This document shows, piece after piece, positions 23,625-28,063 of a stretch of DNA of 64,000 bases (position 1 is its first letter; every line of letters begins with the position of its first letter). The position numbers were made by a program, and so were the translations under genes. Source of the stretch: Heligmosomoides polygyrus polygyrus (Eukaryota; Nematoda; Chromadorea; Rhabditida; Heligmosomidae); NCBI GenBank assembly GCA_947396885.1, contig OX377202.1, positions 22,258,001 to 22,322,000 on the forward strand. Direction: 5' to 3'. The notes under the pieces are model-generated. The model had not been told where the DNA came from and did not search any database. It was given only the letters and a program-made list of their open reading frames with translations.

Positions 23625-23800
23625 AGCAGACTCCCAACGGCCAAGGGTGGAATATAGTGGCCGAACTGGTTTGTCTCAACTGCTGATATTTGGCCGGAAG
23701 AGGATGATATGGGGGAGGCTTTTGCGATAGTCATATTCTTGTAGAGCATTATATCAGAAGCGGATGGATTGGGAACCAGTATGGGGCATTGGCCGTTCAC
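23582..23800 (-). pseudogene. Element 2 protease-RT linker, shifted frame
   Basis: A 72-residue frame with NGQCPILVPNPSASDIMLYK matches the linker of element 1 (NGHCPIIILNPSSATITLYK). It is out of frame with both 23754-24842 and the RT frame. Confidence 0.75.
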
Positions 23801-24842
23801 GGGGGTTGATAAGCATCGTCCGACGACGTATAGGGATTCTGATTCTCAAATTAACCTCCAATAGAACGGAGTCAATTGCAGTAGGAAGCTGGCCTTCGAT
23901 ATACACGGCAATAAAATTCTTACTTCTTTTTGGCAGGAGAACAGCATGGGATACTCTGACGTTATAATAAAGAGGGATGGAAGGTGATATACTGTTTAAC
24001 TGAATTGTTCCGAGGGCTTGTGAGCCAATTATAATGGTATTATTATACAAATCGAGAGTTACCTGCGAGCCGATGGCATTTAAACTGTGGATGAAATCAG
24101 ACCCTAACAGAACTGGAGCCGGGCATTCAGTGTCGGGTGAGATATGAAAAGTATGATTAATGGAGCCCCTAAGCCCTAAGCCTATTTCAACGGGGAGTAC
24201 CACCGTTCCAATTAAGGTGACTTGGCTACCATTCGCGGCTCGTGCTGGGGCACAGATAGAACGTGATGCCCTATGATTTGCCTTCAATGTAGAGAGGGAG
24301 GTCATTCGCATATAGGATAACGACGCTCCGCTGTCAAACAATGCTATAATAGGGGTATCACTGATAAGGACTTGTATATAGGGCAAAGAACTATTGTTCC
24401 TGTCAACCGAAGAAAGGGGGGCGTATACGCGAGGAATAAAGAGACGTTGGTGTGATGGGGCACTAGGTTCCATTTCAATGGAATTGATTTCCCGGTTACG
24501 TGTGCGCTTGGGAGCAACCGGGGTGAATGTATGAGCTAAATCGGCAAGAGCAGTAGCTGCTGTTCTACTGGCTCTACGGATTAGGCAAATTTTTGCGTAG
24601 TAAAAACAAAAGAGTACGGCGCTCATTACTACCAAGGCTGGAATTGTTATCCACAGGACTAATGAGAGTATTGACCAACGAATGCTCTCAACGCCGTCTA
24701 AGAGCTTTTTTGTGGTAGAGCCATAAACTGTGAGAACAGACTCCGTTATCGAACCACTCATCCTTTCAATTTGGTTCAACTTGTCCTCCAAGATGCCACG
24801 TTTTCTTAGGCGGTTTTCGAGCTTTTCGTATTCCTGTTGCAA
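23754..24842 (-). pseudogene. Element 2 envelope C-terminus fused in frame to protease
   Basis: One 362-residue open frame joins two functions. Residues about 1-50 are the end of the glycoprotein ectodomain (NRLRKRGILEDKLNQIER). Residues about 55-85 are a transmembrane segment (LVLWITIPALVVMSAVLFCF) followed by a basic cytoplasmic tail. From about residue 125 the same frame enters a retropepsin: LFIPRVY, then IIALFDSGASLSY with the catalytic DSG near 24,335, and PVLLGSDFIHSL. Element 3 has the same layout. Fusion of an envelope tail to protease is not the usual order for gypsy-type elements, where env is a 3' gene. Confidence 0.85.
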
Positions 24843-25339
24843 AACTGCAGCTGGTATTGCATGGAATGTGCAAAATTCCCGGTGGTGTGGTGATATAAAA
24901 AAGGCGCGTTGAAGATAAATGGCTTAGGATGCGCTTCCTCTAAAATATTAGGAGGAAAGAGTTGCTGCTGAAACATTGAGGTGACAGGCTCCATGTAAGG
25001 ACATGCGACTTCGGCTGAAAAATGCAAAAGATCATTCGAATTTGGGATAGAGAAAAACAAGCGCTCCTCAACTTGGACCGGGAGTAAGGAATAGCAGGTG
25101 TTATTTTCCTTATGACCTATAAAAACGTCAGTGGCACTAATGGGCTTACATCTAGTTACCAAGAGAGCTCCATTTTCGGTAATGGCGGAGACGTCATTGC
25201 GATCAAGAAGGGTCCGGACTGTCCAGGTGGGATCTATTATGCTCAGAGAATGTATTTTCTGAGCGTTTACGTATTGCCTTATACAGATGCTATTAAATGT
25301 GTGCCGTAATGGAATATTAAAGAGGAAAATTGCACGAGT
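24806..25339 (-). pseudogene. Element 2 envelope-like glycoprotein, C-terminal ectodomain
   Basis: The frame encodes a segment matching element 3 at 53.75-54.3 kb: LRHTFNSICI, ENGALLVTRCKPI, NNTCYSLLPV, EVACPYMEPV and FAHSMQYQLQF, with conserved cysteines. It shifts frame near 24,830 into the envelope tail-protease frame. The fold class cannot be settled by eye. Confidence 0.7.
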
Positions 25340-26345
25340 TCGTCCAGAGGCTTGGGGGGGGAACAACTGTAGGAGAAATATGATGTATATTATTGCTATA
25401 TATGTATAATCGAGAGAGGCATGAGTCACTGTCCGACGACATGCTTGCACTCTTATGTGAAGCCGGCCGCGCGCGCTGCGCTGAAGCCCGCCGTCTCCGC
25501 TGCGTCTGCCGCGTCCGCTGCATCTGCTGCGTTCGGTGCGTCGGCCGCGCTGAAGCCAGCCGCGTTCGCTGCACCCACCGCTTCTGAGGGTGTTTACTGC
25601 TGACGGCGCATGAACTCTCGACGGTGGCATGTTGATCCCATCTAATGTGTTTATGAACCGACTGCCAAAGGGATGCAAAGCAGAGAACATTGTGCGTTTG
25701 CTCTCGGTACGGTTTCTTTCACCTTCTCCATTTTCGCTTCATTTTCGCATCAGTCCTTACTGCATTTTCCTCTGCATCTCTGTAATTTCACACTGCCGCT
25801 AAACTTTTCCTCACTCATTTCAATCCGTTTCAATCTATGCACATCCTATCATGAAGACCTGCGGAAGACGTTACACAAACGGCGAAGCCGGTGATGGACG
25901 CTGGCTGAGGAAGCATCCCTAGGTAGGTGCTGGCTACGTTCTTGGCGTTGCGCGCTCGTCTCGCGTACGGCGCCGGCGAAGCCGGCGATGGACGCTGGCT
26001 GAGGAAGCATCCTTAGCTAGGTTTGGACTACGTCCCTAGCGTGGCCCACCATACCCGAAGCCGGCGACGGACGCTGCCTGAGGAAGCATCCCCACCTAGG
26101 TTTGGGCAGCGTTCCTAGCGTGGCCCACTATACCCGAAGCCGGCAAGCCAGGCGTGGTCCTCACGTCCAGCGTACGGCGCCGGCGAAGCCAGCGACGGAC
26201 GCTGCTGAGGAAGCATCCCTAGCTAGGCTTGGGCTGCGTTCCTAGCGTGGTTCACCATACCCGAAGCCAACGAAGCCGGCAAGCCTGGCGTGGCCAGCAC
26301 GTCCAGCGTACGGCGCCGGCGAAGCCGGCGACGCACGCTGGTTTG
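25340..26345. repeat. About 1-kb insertion in the element 2 envelope gene, with GC-rich minisatellite
   Basis: The envelope reading is interrupted between about 26,345 (KWPIIMQTNQ) and 25,340 (RAIFLFNIPL). At 25.44-25.60 kb there are imperfect short repeats of GCTGCGTCTGCCGCG type. At about 25.87-26.34 kb several units carry GCCGGCGAAGCCGGCGA, ACGCTGGCTGAGGAAGCATC, CTAGCGTGGCCCACCATACC and AAGCCGGCAAGCCTGGCGTG. Related units occur at 51.99-52.08 and 52.25-52.32 kb. Confidence 0.75.
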
Positions 26346-28063
26346 TTTGCATTATAATTGGCCATTTGAGGTAATTGAGATTATCGATATTGATCTCATC
26401 ATAAAGTGCTGCAACGTTATTTGGGTTAGGGCGGGTGTCATGGTGCGCCTTAATTAATGGCAATGATGGGAGAGGAGTTGTTACTCTTGGAAGTGACTTA
26501 GTATATAAAGGAATTGTGTAGTAAATATGATAGGCCTAAAAGAGGTAGGACGTGGCTCCATGGGTAATGGCCGGACGTATGGAGGGAGCTCTGTTGTTGG
26601 AGGCATTCTTCGAGAGGAAGGCGTAGTGACGGGAGCTGGTGGGAGGGGGTAGGTTTGGAGATGCAGTGGTCTTATTTGCATGTGTAAGCAAAAGTAAATC
26701 TGCATTTTCAAAATACGGTACCTCCTTTTCCCTATCTTGTAAACCAGAGTTTGTGAGATGGGGGCCTAGAGGGGCAGATTCCTCAGTCAGATAGTCGTCG
26801 AATATATCCGAAACTCCCTGTATAAGATCTCTATATATTGTAAACTCGGTATAATTTAAAGATCGCTTTGATTTTATGTAGCGGAGATGGGATAGCTGGC
26901 GGTAGCGATATTCAGCGTATCGGATTGTTTTCAGGTGCTCAACCTAAGGTCTTCTTTTACGTAGTATTTGCTCCGACAAAAGTCTTCATCACTAACGTTC
27001 CATCGGATTATTTCATTTAGAACGCCCGCATTCTTAATTGGCCTTGTGGCAAATAGTGGGATTTCATCTATCGGTTTGGCGAACAGGGATTGGGCAAGAT
27101 GAGGTACCTGTTTCGCAATTTTCTCATATCGCGGCTGTTTCTGATCCGCGTCAATTATATAGTGAGTGCTTAACTTATTGCGGTAAGTCGAGGAATTTTC
27201 TAGTAGATAATCACGTACCATAATGTTAGAAGGGATATTGGGGAACCTAACATGTGAGAAGAGGTGGTGAGATACGTCTGTGGCAGTGAGCAATGCTTAA
27301 GTAATTTGGATTGCAAATAATAATCGCTACTGAATTGAAAAGTGAGCTCATGGTTATCAATAACTAAATAGCGGAGAGTTACGAGGGCGTCGTAGGTGCC
27401 TACTAAGTTACATTGACATACGGGCAGATCTGATGCGGGTTCCCAGATTAGTATTCCTCCTGGAATTATACATGCGTAACTTGAGAGGGTCCAATTCTCT
27501 ACGGGTCCTAAGGAGCTGGATACAATGATTCCATCCAGTGATGCGATCTCGCCTTCTGCTATCGAATAAATACTTCTTAAAGTTGTTCCCCATAGGGGAG
27601 AGGTGTACCAAGTTCCTCAATTTTGGAGGTCGTCCGAAGTCCTGGGGAAATGATGGTGAGGGAATGGCCGTATGTAGAATCACTTTTGAAAGCTTGCCTA
27701 CAATCGCTATTGGAGAGACCGGTGCGTTGGCGGCCGATAATAGTGCGAGTAGTACGGATATAAAGGAAATTATATGCTTCTACTTTAATAAGGTCTCTAT
27801 AGCAGTTAAAAGCCTAAGTTCCCAGTGGGTCGTTTCTTTTGACGTACAACTGTTCTGAGCATGGGTTCATCCATCGTGGCTGAACACTTAATTAGGGATG
27901 GAAGAAGAAGCGGGCTCGAAAAGGGTGTTGTGCCGCATAGTTGAAAACGGGACTCCCCAAGTGGGAGAATTGAAAGAGCTGCTAATGTGAGAATGCAAAA
28001 GAAGGCCGGCGTGGACATTACAGCAGGGAATCTAGTGTTGGGTTGAGCGTAGGGTTGCTGCAC
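26346..28063 (-). pseudogene. Element 2 envelope-like glycoprotein, N-terminal part
   Basis: It begins at ATG 28063 with a hydrophobic signal-like segment (FFCILTLAALSILPLG) followed by FQLCGTTPFSSPLLLPSLIK, which matches the mature N-terminus in element 3. It overlaps the gag frame end by 46 bp. Later pieces include YNFLYIRTTRTI, a 120-residue frame at 26931-27293 and short frames to 26,242. Several frameshifts break it. Envelope proteins mediate cell entry in retroviruses; here only the domain layout supports the name. Confidence 0.7.

Follow-up and report, generated by a model that had tools for sequence, protein, structure and literature searches.

Retroviruses make their envelope glycoprotein (Env) from a spliced RNA, and the elements of the errantivirus/gypsy group likewise use a spliced RNA for an F-type class I Env encoded 3' of integrase. 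To our knowledge, every known retrovirus and env-bearing retroelement places Env last, apart from the junction of Gag and Pol. Here we analyze three long terminal repeat (LTR) retroelements in a 64,000-nucleotide stretch of the nematode Heligmosomoides polygyrus polygyrus (assembly GCA_947396885.1, contig OX377202.1, positions 22,258,001 to 22,322,000; "the window"), which belong to a family with env between gag and protease (PR).

Several described systems bear on this family. The env of errantiviruses was captured from a baculovirus (PMC12440569). In nematode elements of the BEL/Pao type (Belpaoviridae), the reverse transcriptase (RT) motif reads YVDN and env comes last (PMC9094657). Atlas virus, a nematode LTR element that inserted recently, encodes Gag, Pol and Env in one stop- and intron-free frame of 2828 residues (PMC9094657). 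A herpesvirus glycoprotein B (gB)-like env is attributed to Tas of Ascaris in PMC9094657, while PMC7642597 lists a phlebovirus env for Tas and a herpesvirus env for Cer-7.

Results

Self-comparison of the window by blastn, together with tblastn using the proteins of three relatives (P0018, P0121 and P0122), resolved three elements, the coding parts of which all lie on the minus strand (Table 1). Element 2 extends from gag at about 29.0 kb down to an integrase interrupted by element 1, and tblastn with these proteins gave the collinear order gag, env, transmembrane segment, PR, RT, RNase H and integrase. A preliminary description of this DNA, made from its letters, had placed an envelope-like gene between gag and PR with its tail fused in frame to an LFDSGAS protease. 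The tblastn alignments agree with that placement, and the open reading frame (ORF) at 23754-24842 (362 codons from a TTG) contains the predicted hydrophobic, transmembrane-like segment upstream of the LFDSGAS motif. The PR matches Pfam gag-asp_proteas (PF13975) with an E value of 3.6e-5 (24.7 bits, below the cut-off of 28.2). Element 3 retains gag, env and PR only, in the same order, and the earlier argument that the layout is not a rearrangement of a single copy is upheld by tblastn and by the copies described below. No env match was found downstream of an integrase in the window (tblastn, E up to 1e-4). Both env copies in the window are decayed: that of element 2 is scattered across several frames, and that of element 3 does not share a frame with PR. 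Because unbroken copies in the same genome and P0018 carry Gag-Env-Pol in one frame, we read the stops and frame changes of the window copies as decay.

The genome (656 Mb, 1130 contigs) contains 121 matches to the env core of element 3, some of them pieces of one copy, and 8 lie in open frames of at least 2,400 codons. We examined 23 loci, comprising the top 20 env matches outside the window (L009-L028) and 3 picked for long frames (L035-L037); L001-L008, shorter stretches around the eight top matches, were left out of the counts, L001 being element 3 and the others copies that are also in L009-L015. In 21 of the 23 loci env has gag on its upstream and PR on its downstream side, the two misses being L012, at a contig edge, and L024, which gave no gag match. 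Integrase was detected in 21 loci and lies downstream of env in every one. The two outcomes held up beforehand as contrary to the proposed order, env 3' of integrase and an unrelated insertion in just two copies, are therefore not what these 23 loci show. A single stop-free frame of 2,429-2,887 codons joins gag, env, PR, RT, RNase H and integrase in 7/23 loci, a fraction biased by L035-L037 (3/3 unbroken); the rank-chosen loci alone give 4/20. Both ends were located in 18 of the loci L009-L028 (all but L012 and L024); in 11 of these, gag runs into env in a single frame that no stop interrupts.

These frames lead us to read the coding plan as Gag-Env-PR-RT-RNase H-integrase in one frame. The preliminary description had proposed gag followed by a separate env-pol unit; its second half stands, with env in frame with PR, RT, RNase H and integrase, but gag belongs to the same frame too, in the seven unbroken loci and in P0018. 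The LTR pairs of three copies are 100%, 99.7% and about 99% identical, so insertions of the family in this layout are recent. A protein named H. polygyrus, P0004, is up to 91.5% identical to copies in the genome that contains the window.

A pol query retrieved proteins from strongylids and from Caenorhabditis. The gag-env-PR order occurs within six single predicted proteins from five other named nematode species: P0018 of Cylicostephanus goldi (gag-env-PR-RT), P0121 of Ancylostoma duodenale (gag-env-PR-RT-RNase H; 2192 residues), P0122 of Oesophagostomum dentatum (the same order through to integrase; 2621 residues), P0126 of Caenorhabditis brenneri and P0131 and P0133 of Caenorhabditis remanei (all three gag-env-PR). 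P0018 is the strongest case for contiguity among the relatives' proteins; its 1613 codons fill a 4842-base contig, so that there is no room for introns. Pfam (E up to 0.1) placed env N-terminal to PR in 9 of 13 scanned proteins (P0004, P0005, P0006, P0008, P0012, P0015, P0017, P0018 and P0019), with a match above the curated cut-off in P0015 and, outside these nine, in P0126 and P0133. It found no env in P0001, P0007, P0013 and P0023, although blastp aligns env with P0001, P0007 and P0023, and P0007 matches the env profile as well. With the env profile, env is N-terminal to PR in 17/17 proteins, which were picked for having both. A third protein search (12 proteins) yielded three new proteins with gag, env and PR, P0127 without env, and seven outside the scan. 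A limited search of IMG/VR viral contigs with P0122 confirmed no close relatives.

Two further proteins were noted alongside these. P0125 (metaclust, 1082 residues) is a distant protein with gag and the N-terminal part of env, 21-24% identical, and suggests deeper members of the family. P0015 (ena), an env-pol relative, has a 204-residue spacer between the transmembrane segment and PR and a second weak RVP match, so its protease is perhaps duplicated.

ORF 24806-25738, which covers the env core of element 2, matches the Pfam family Monjiviricetes_fusion (PF24664) with an E value of 3.2e-7 (29.1 bits, above the cut-off of 27). Since a PDB search with this single ORF gave no match, a profile of ten sequences (nine database segments and one window ORF) was needed to reach gB. 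With a limit of E 1 the profile returned 53 PDB matches; herpesvirus gB accounts for 52 of them (best E 7e-5), including GP110, BALF4 and ORF8, which we take to be names of gB; the remaining match was an angiogenin (E 0.31). In the predicted structure of the core, blocks of residues 151-250 have a predicted local distance difference test (pLDDT) score of 81-97, and 136 of 310 residues score below 50. Foldseek comparison of this model with the PDB again retrieved gB (best E 8e-4), and comparison with viral models retrieved glycoproteins of chuviruses, rhabdoviruses and other negative-strand viruses (best E 4e-7). The query TM-scores are low, at 0.19-0.28 against the PDB (best 50 matches listed) and 0.22-0.29 against the viral models (12 matches, E up to 0.001); given these scores and the share of residues with pLDDT below 50, the fold match is to the core and not to the whole fold. 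The profile and structure searches that had been suggested for env converge on a class III core (PF24664, gB, chuvirus-type glycoprotein), and we identify the env core as that of a class III fusion glycoprotein of the gB/chuvirus type, with predicted fusion activity; for the window copies this identification is based on the PF24664 and gB profile matches. Several family members also carry furin-like R-x-K/R-R sites, a pattern short enough to occur by chance, and 5 of 6 proteins inspected have a Thr-rich stretch in env, P0122 being the one without.

Between two intact subfamilies, where synonymous change is near saturation, the ratio of nonsynonymous to synonymous differences (pN/pS) is 0.27 for gag, 0.24 for the N-terminal part of env and 0.24 for the env core and stem, compared with 0.64 for the Thr-rich linker, 0.33 for PR, 0.07 for RT-RNase H and 0.23 for integrase. 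The two window copies, elements 2 and 3, give 0.39 for env (431 codons) and 0.41 for PR. These ratios show that env is under purifying selection. Distances in env and in PR co-vary (Mantel r 0.92; 0/5000 permutations; 19 sequences), and repeated env swaps are therefore disfavored. The simplest history would be one old capture before the split of Caenorhabditis and strongylids, or passage of the entire unit from one host to another.

Element 1 is nested in element 2 and has PR directly after gag. The two share a frame with one stop at the junction, and there is one frame change in integrase. The end of its gag is 99% identical to four other places in the genome and the start of its PR is 93-95% identical to four; in its closest relative the two parts lie 2,658 bases apart, in place of which element 1 has 3 other bases. 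Because adjacent gag and PR occur in element 1 only, among at least 15 genome matches, we read element 1 as a derived, env-deleted copy of the same family.

Downstream of the element 1 integrase, ORF 10853-11887 runs into the 3' LTR and contains, by eye, several CCHC/CCCC zinc-knuckle-like motifs; similar ORFs lie at 32851-33369 and 30871-31451. ORF 10853-11887 had no Pfam match. A CCHC pattern was not found in the gag of P0018, P0121 or P0122, and P0017 has three at its C terminus. The ORF possibly encodes an accessory RNA-binding protein.

We propose that the whole frame is translated as one polyprotein that would thread the endoplasmic reticulum membrane twice. An internal signal segment would leave Gag in the cytosol and direct the Env ectodomain into the lumen, and the transmembrane segment would then turn the chain back so that PR, RT, RNase H and integrase are cytosolic. 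Host signal peptidase, perhaps with furin, would trim the outer side and the element's own PR the inner side. Gag and Pol, tethered to the Env-carrying membrane, would end up inside an Env-bearing particle. In the intact frames, two hydrophobic segments flank the env ectodomain, scoring 1.7-2.2 after gag and about 3.0 before PR. The position of the first is likewise hydrophobic in P0018, P0121, P0122, P0124, P0126 and P0133. The second is present before PR in 17/17 database proteins, is followed by net positive charge in all 17, and lies 43-60 residues from PR in 16 of them. The two segments, the spacing and the charge thus fit an arrangement with Gag inside, the ectodomain outside and Pol inside. 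We assign this one-chain, two-pass membrane polyprotein a probability of about 60%. Extended to a whole clade of nematode reverse-transcribing elements, with the Env transmembrane segment anchoring Pol for packaging, the proposal is in our judgment evenly balanced between true and false.

At the gag/env border, many copies in the H. polygyrus genome conserve RFP[SA]...NP[AT]FFCI just before the signal segment, and the same border in Ancylostoma, Oesophagostomum and Cylicostephanus reads P[SGN].AQNVNFLC. This motif is a possible cleavage site for a protease.

A number of observations weigh against the proposed gene order, the class III assignment or the polyprotein. The loci were selected by an env query, which leaves env-less families out of the count; most Pfam env matches in database proteins are below the curated cut-off; P0013 (C. 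brenneri) has gag and RT with no detectable env or PR; and among the NCBI proteins all but P0018 may be gene models in which introns are skipped. The N-terminal half of env is poorly modeled (P0124 model, mean pLDDT 38), and the class III assignment covers the core and not a complete class III fold. The topology is read from hydropathy and charge in elements known from sequence. P0131 has no clear signal segment, and the first segment is weak in general, the weakest copy hardly exceeding stray stretches of 1.68 that occur in the pol of four intact frames. Finally, an in-frame Met immediately precedes the signal segment in 13 of the 18 genome loci, and L011 and L013 have one 18 residues upstream of it, so that separate initiation of Env-Pol is possible and both modes may exist.

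Such initiation, at the in-frame ATG before the signal segment and by internal entry, leaky scanning or a subgenomic RNA, would yield Gag and a membrane-anchored Env-Pol. The Met residues just described, together with those directly before the segment in L037 and element 2, argue for it. However, 5/18 loci and L036 have no Met directly before the segment, the nearest upstream Met in P0121 and P0122 sits in the gag tail, and P0018 has none over residues 60-240, so that Env there can hardly start alone; moreover, the gag-env frame is kept open in the 11 stop-free loci with no need for it under this scheme. We judge separate initiation unlikely. Splicing appears more doubtful still. Under that scheme the full RNA would give Gag-Env and an env-removed RNA would give Gag-Pol, with element 1 a copy of the spliced RNA. 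The in-frame absence of env at the gag/PR border of element 1, a donor-like GTAAGT at the end of the element 2 gag, donor-like GTRAG near nucleotide 700 in 4/7 intact frames (a generic consensus and a weak test) and the splicing by which Cer1 of C. elegans makes its extra protein (PMC10309623) would all suit it. Against this, 5/7 intact frames lack an acceptor-like site within the 800 bases that precede the PR motif (also a weak test), no GT...AG was found at the element 1 deletion borders as judged on element 3, and a junction with a stop in it that is seen once in at least 15 matches is unlike a recurrent spliced product. Element 1 was accordingly rejected as a retrocopy of spliced RNA, given the missing splice-site pair and the single occurrence of the junction. 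Readthrough of a leaky gag/env stop, which the stops in elements 2 and 3 had suggested, was dropped because 11/18 loci are stop-free and the shared-frame stops of L013 and L026 are at different places.

Two other readings concern env itself. That it arrived by chance, through insertion or recombination, in two copies of a family whose true env follows integrase, or is lacking, might seem to gain from the env-less element 1 in the same window and from the choice of loci by env, which would miss env-less families. Yet env lies between gag and PR in 21 of the 23 H. polygyrus loci and in the five other named species, and element 1 is a derived copy; on these sequences the reading, as stated, is refuted and retains a negligible probability. 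Alternatively, Env could serve as a module for attachment or anchoring, carrying Gag and Pol to the germline membranes inside one worm, with no role as a cell-to-cell fusogen. Recognition of the class III core only, in elements known from sequence and not from particles, would be compatible with this, but constraint extends across the ectodomain except for the Thr-rich linker, the furin-like sites (which chance could produce) recur in several members, and the core has a fold match to gB and to the fusogens of negative-strand viruses. We consider an anchoring module very improbable. The membrane-threading polyprotein remains the reading that we favor.

The features of the three elements are collected in Table 1. 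The insertion in the env of element 2 (about 25.35-26.66 kb) holds tandem repeats detected by Tandem Repeats Finder (TRF) and has no env match within it. The first ~124 residues of ORF 24806-25738 belong to an unrelated high-copy repeat, residues 3-98 matching many places in the genome. The tandem repeats of the insertion recur near 52 kb (51976-52108), and ORF 52187-52633, adjoining the truncated element 3, resembles by eye an RT fragment of a non-LTR retrotransposon (DLEKAFERVPREVIWYAL). Elsewhere in the window, positions 1-7118 hold a 3.5-kb unit in tandem (99.9% identical), positions 9045-9479 a 113-bp tandem repeat (3.8 copies, 96% matches), and positions 37652-41693 and 60636-61108 long, foldback-like inverted repeats (94-97% complementary).

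Table 1. Positions of retroelement features in the window
Feature	Position	Strand	Evidence or remark
Element 2 gag (capsid region)	28351..28972	-	tblastn with P0122/P0121 gag, 61-68% identity
Element 2 gag tail and env match	28225-24845	-	tblastn
Element 2 signal-peptide-like segment, directly after gag	27950..28009	-	PAFFCILTLAALSILPLGES; ORF 27806-28063
Element 2 env ectodomain, N-terminal part, several frames	26656..28051	-	tblastn/blastp to P0018/P0121/P0122
Unrelated insertion in element 2 env, ~1.3 kb, limits approximate	25352..26655	-	TRF; high-copy repeat
Element 2 env core, class III (gB/chuvirus-like) fusion domain	24845..25351	-	PF24664, gB profile match, Foldseek
Element 2 putative Env transmembrane segment	~24590..24680	-	Hydrophobic stretch SILSLVLWITIPALVVMSAVLFCFYYAKICLIRR
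Element 2 transmembrane/PR/RT match	24842-23121	-	tblastn
Element 2 aspartic protease, in frame with Env tail	24090..24377	-	PF13975, residues 183-278 of ORF 23754-24923
Element 2 RT, interrupted ~23.12-21.11 kb	20733..23675	-	tblastn; RVT_1 E 0.002, below cut-off
Element 2 RT, second portion	21107-20733	-	tblastn
Element 2 RNase H	20209..20730	-	tblastn
Element 2 integrase, first part, cut by element 1	19140..20186	-	tblastn
Element 2 integrase, C-terminal part with GPF motif, beyond element 1	10322..10581	-	tblastn; ORF 10223-10516
Element 1 5' LTR (TG...CA), inserted in element 2 integrase	18689..19140	-	blastn pair 98.9%
Element 1 gag	16377..17621	-	Pfam Retrotrans_gag E 3e-7
Element 1 PR-RT-RNase H-integrase, directly after gag, env missing	12785..16376	-	Pfam; tblastn
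Element 1 3' LTR	10581..11032	-	blastn; ends read
Element 3 gag	56162..56778	-	tblastn; blastn 84% to element 1 over gag and leader
Element 3 env, signal-like and transmembrane segments, several frames	53327..55778	-	tblastn; blastp of pieces to P0018
Element 3 protease region, then truncated	52635..53210	-	tblastn

Discussion

That a conserved family, active in the recent past, carries Env in one frame between Gag and PR shows that the Env-last order is not required. We found no report of env between gag and PR in the open-access literature as searched by title and start of abstract (PMC2577118, PMC2774666), Repbase not being part of that search. The layout raises the question of how Gag, a secreted glycoprotein and cytosolic enzymes are made from one chain, and the earlier suggestion that env before PR calls for a different strategy of production and sorting, for the glycoprotein as for the enzymes, gains support from the present data. 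If the polyprotein proposed here is correct, the genome, the capsid and the entry protein would be delivered together to one membrane site in equal ratio, with no splicing, frameshift or readthrough required. Because the element occurs in Caenorhabditis as well as in parasitic strongylids, the question is open to worm RNA and proteome data.

The best explanation of the sequences is a family of env-bearing Ty3/Gypsy-type LTR retroelements of rhabditine nematodes. The domain order PR-RT-RNase H-integrase is that of Ty3/Gypsy (Metaviridae), and the best solved relatives of pol are the Ty3-G Gag-Pol (E 4.6e-89) and the Ty3 RT (E 4.4e-79), ahead of the other RTs listed, in a ranking of PDB matches by E value in which BEL/Pao structures may be absent. 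A GPF/Y motif is present at the integrase C terminus (DGPFPIVRI in 10223-10516 and EGPFTVV in 12773-13495). Element 1, the one element examined in this respect, has TG...CA LTRs and a 4-bp duplication, ATAT, on both sides, in keeping with the TG...CA ends and 4-6 bp target duplications of Ty3/Gypsy, and its RT motif is YIDD. The family is not BEL/Pao, from which it differs in having YIDD and not YVDN, in its gene order and in having Ty3 as its best solved relative.

Among known systems, the family departs from the gag-pol-env order of Retroviridae. It resembles errantiviruses and gypsy in combining a Ty3/Gypsy pol with env, but those carry env downstream of integrase and here integrase lies downstream of env. 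Cer1 of C. elegans, also a Ty3/Gypsy element of a nematode, likewise has its Gag-Pol in a single very long frame (PMC10309623, PMC3315495), but its additional protein, CERV, which is encoded in part beyond pol, serves in nuclear RNA export and is not an Env. Troyka and Cer1 were both considered as known cases of the present order and rejected (PMC12440569, PMC10309623, PMC3315495). Tas and Cer7, compared by description and not by sequence, are nematode BEL/Pao elements with env downstream of the polyprotein (PMC7642597), and Anakin, a mosquito BEL/Pao element, has also captured a chuvirus-type glycoprotein, in another superfamily and another host (PMC7642597). Atlas virus shares with the present family a nematode LTR element, a captured viral fusogen and a single frame; it differs in being BEL/Pao, with the order Gag-Pol-Env and a class II, phlebovirus-like Env (PMC9094657). 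We regard Atlas virus as the nearest precedent.

A further parallel lies outside the retroelements. The flavivirus polyprotein contains a capsid, an internal signal, an envelope protein, transmembrane segments and cytosolic enzymes in one chain. Flaviviruses are unrelated RNA viruses, and no homology is claimed; by analogy, however, the model proposed here would resemble the logic of the flavivirus polyprotein more than the spliced-env logic of retroviruses.

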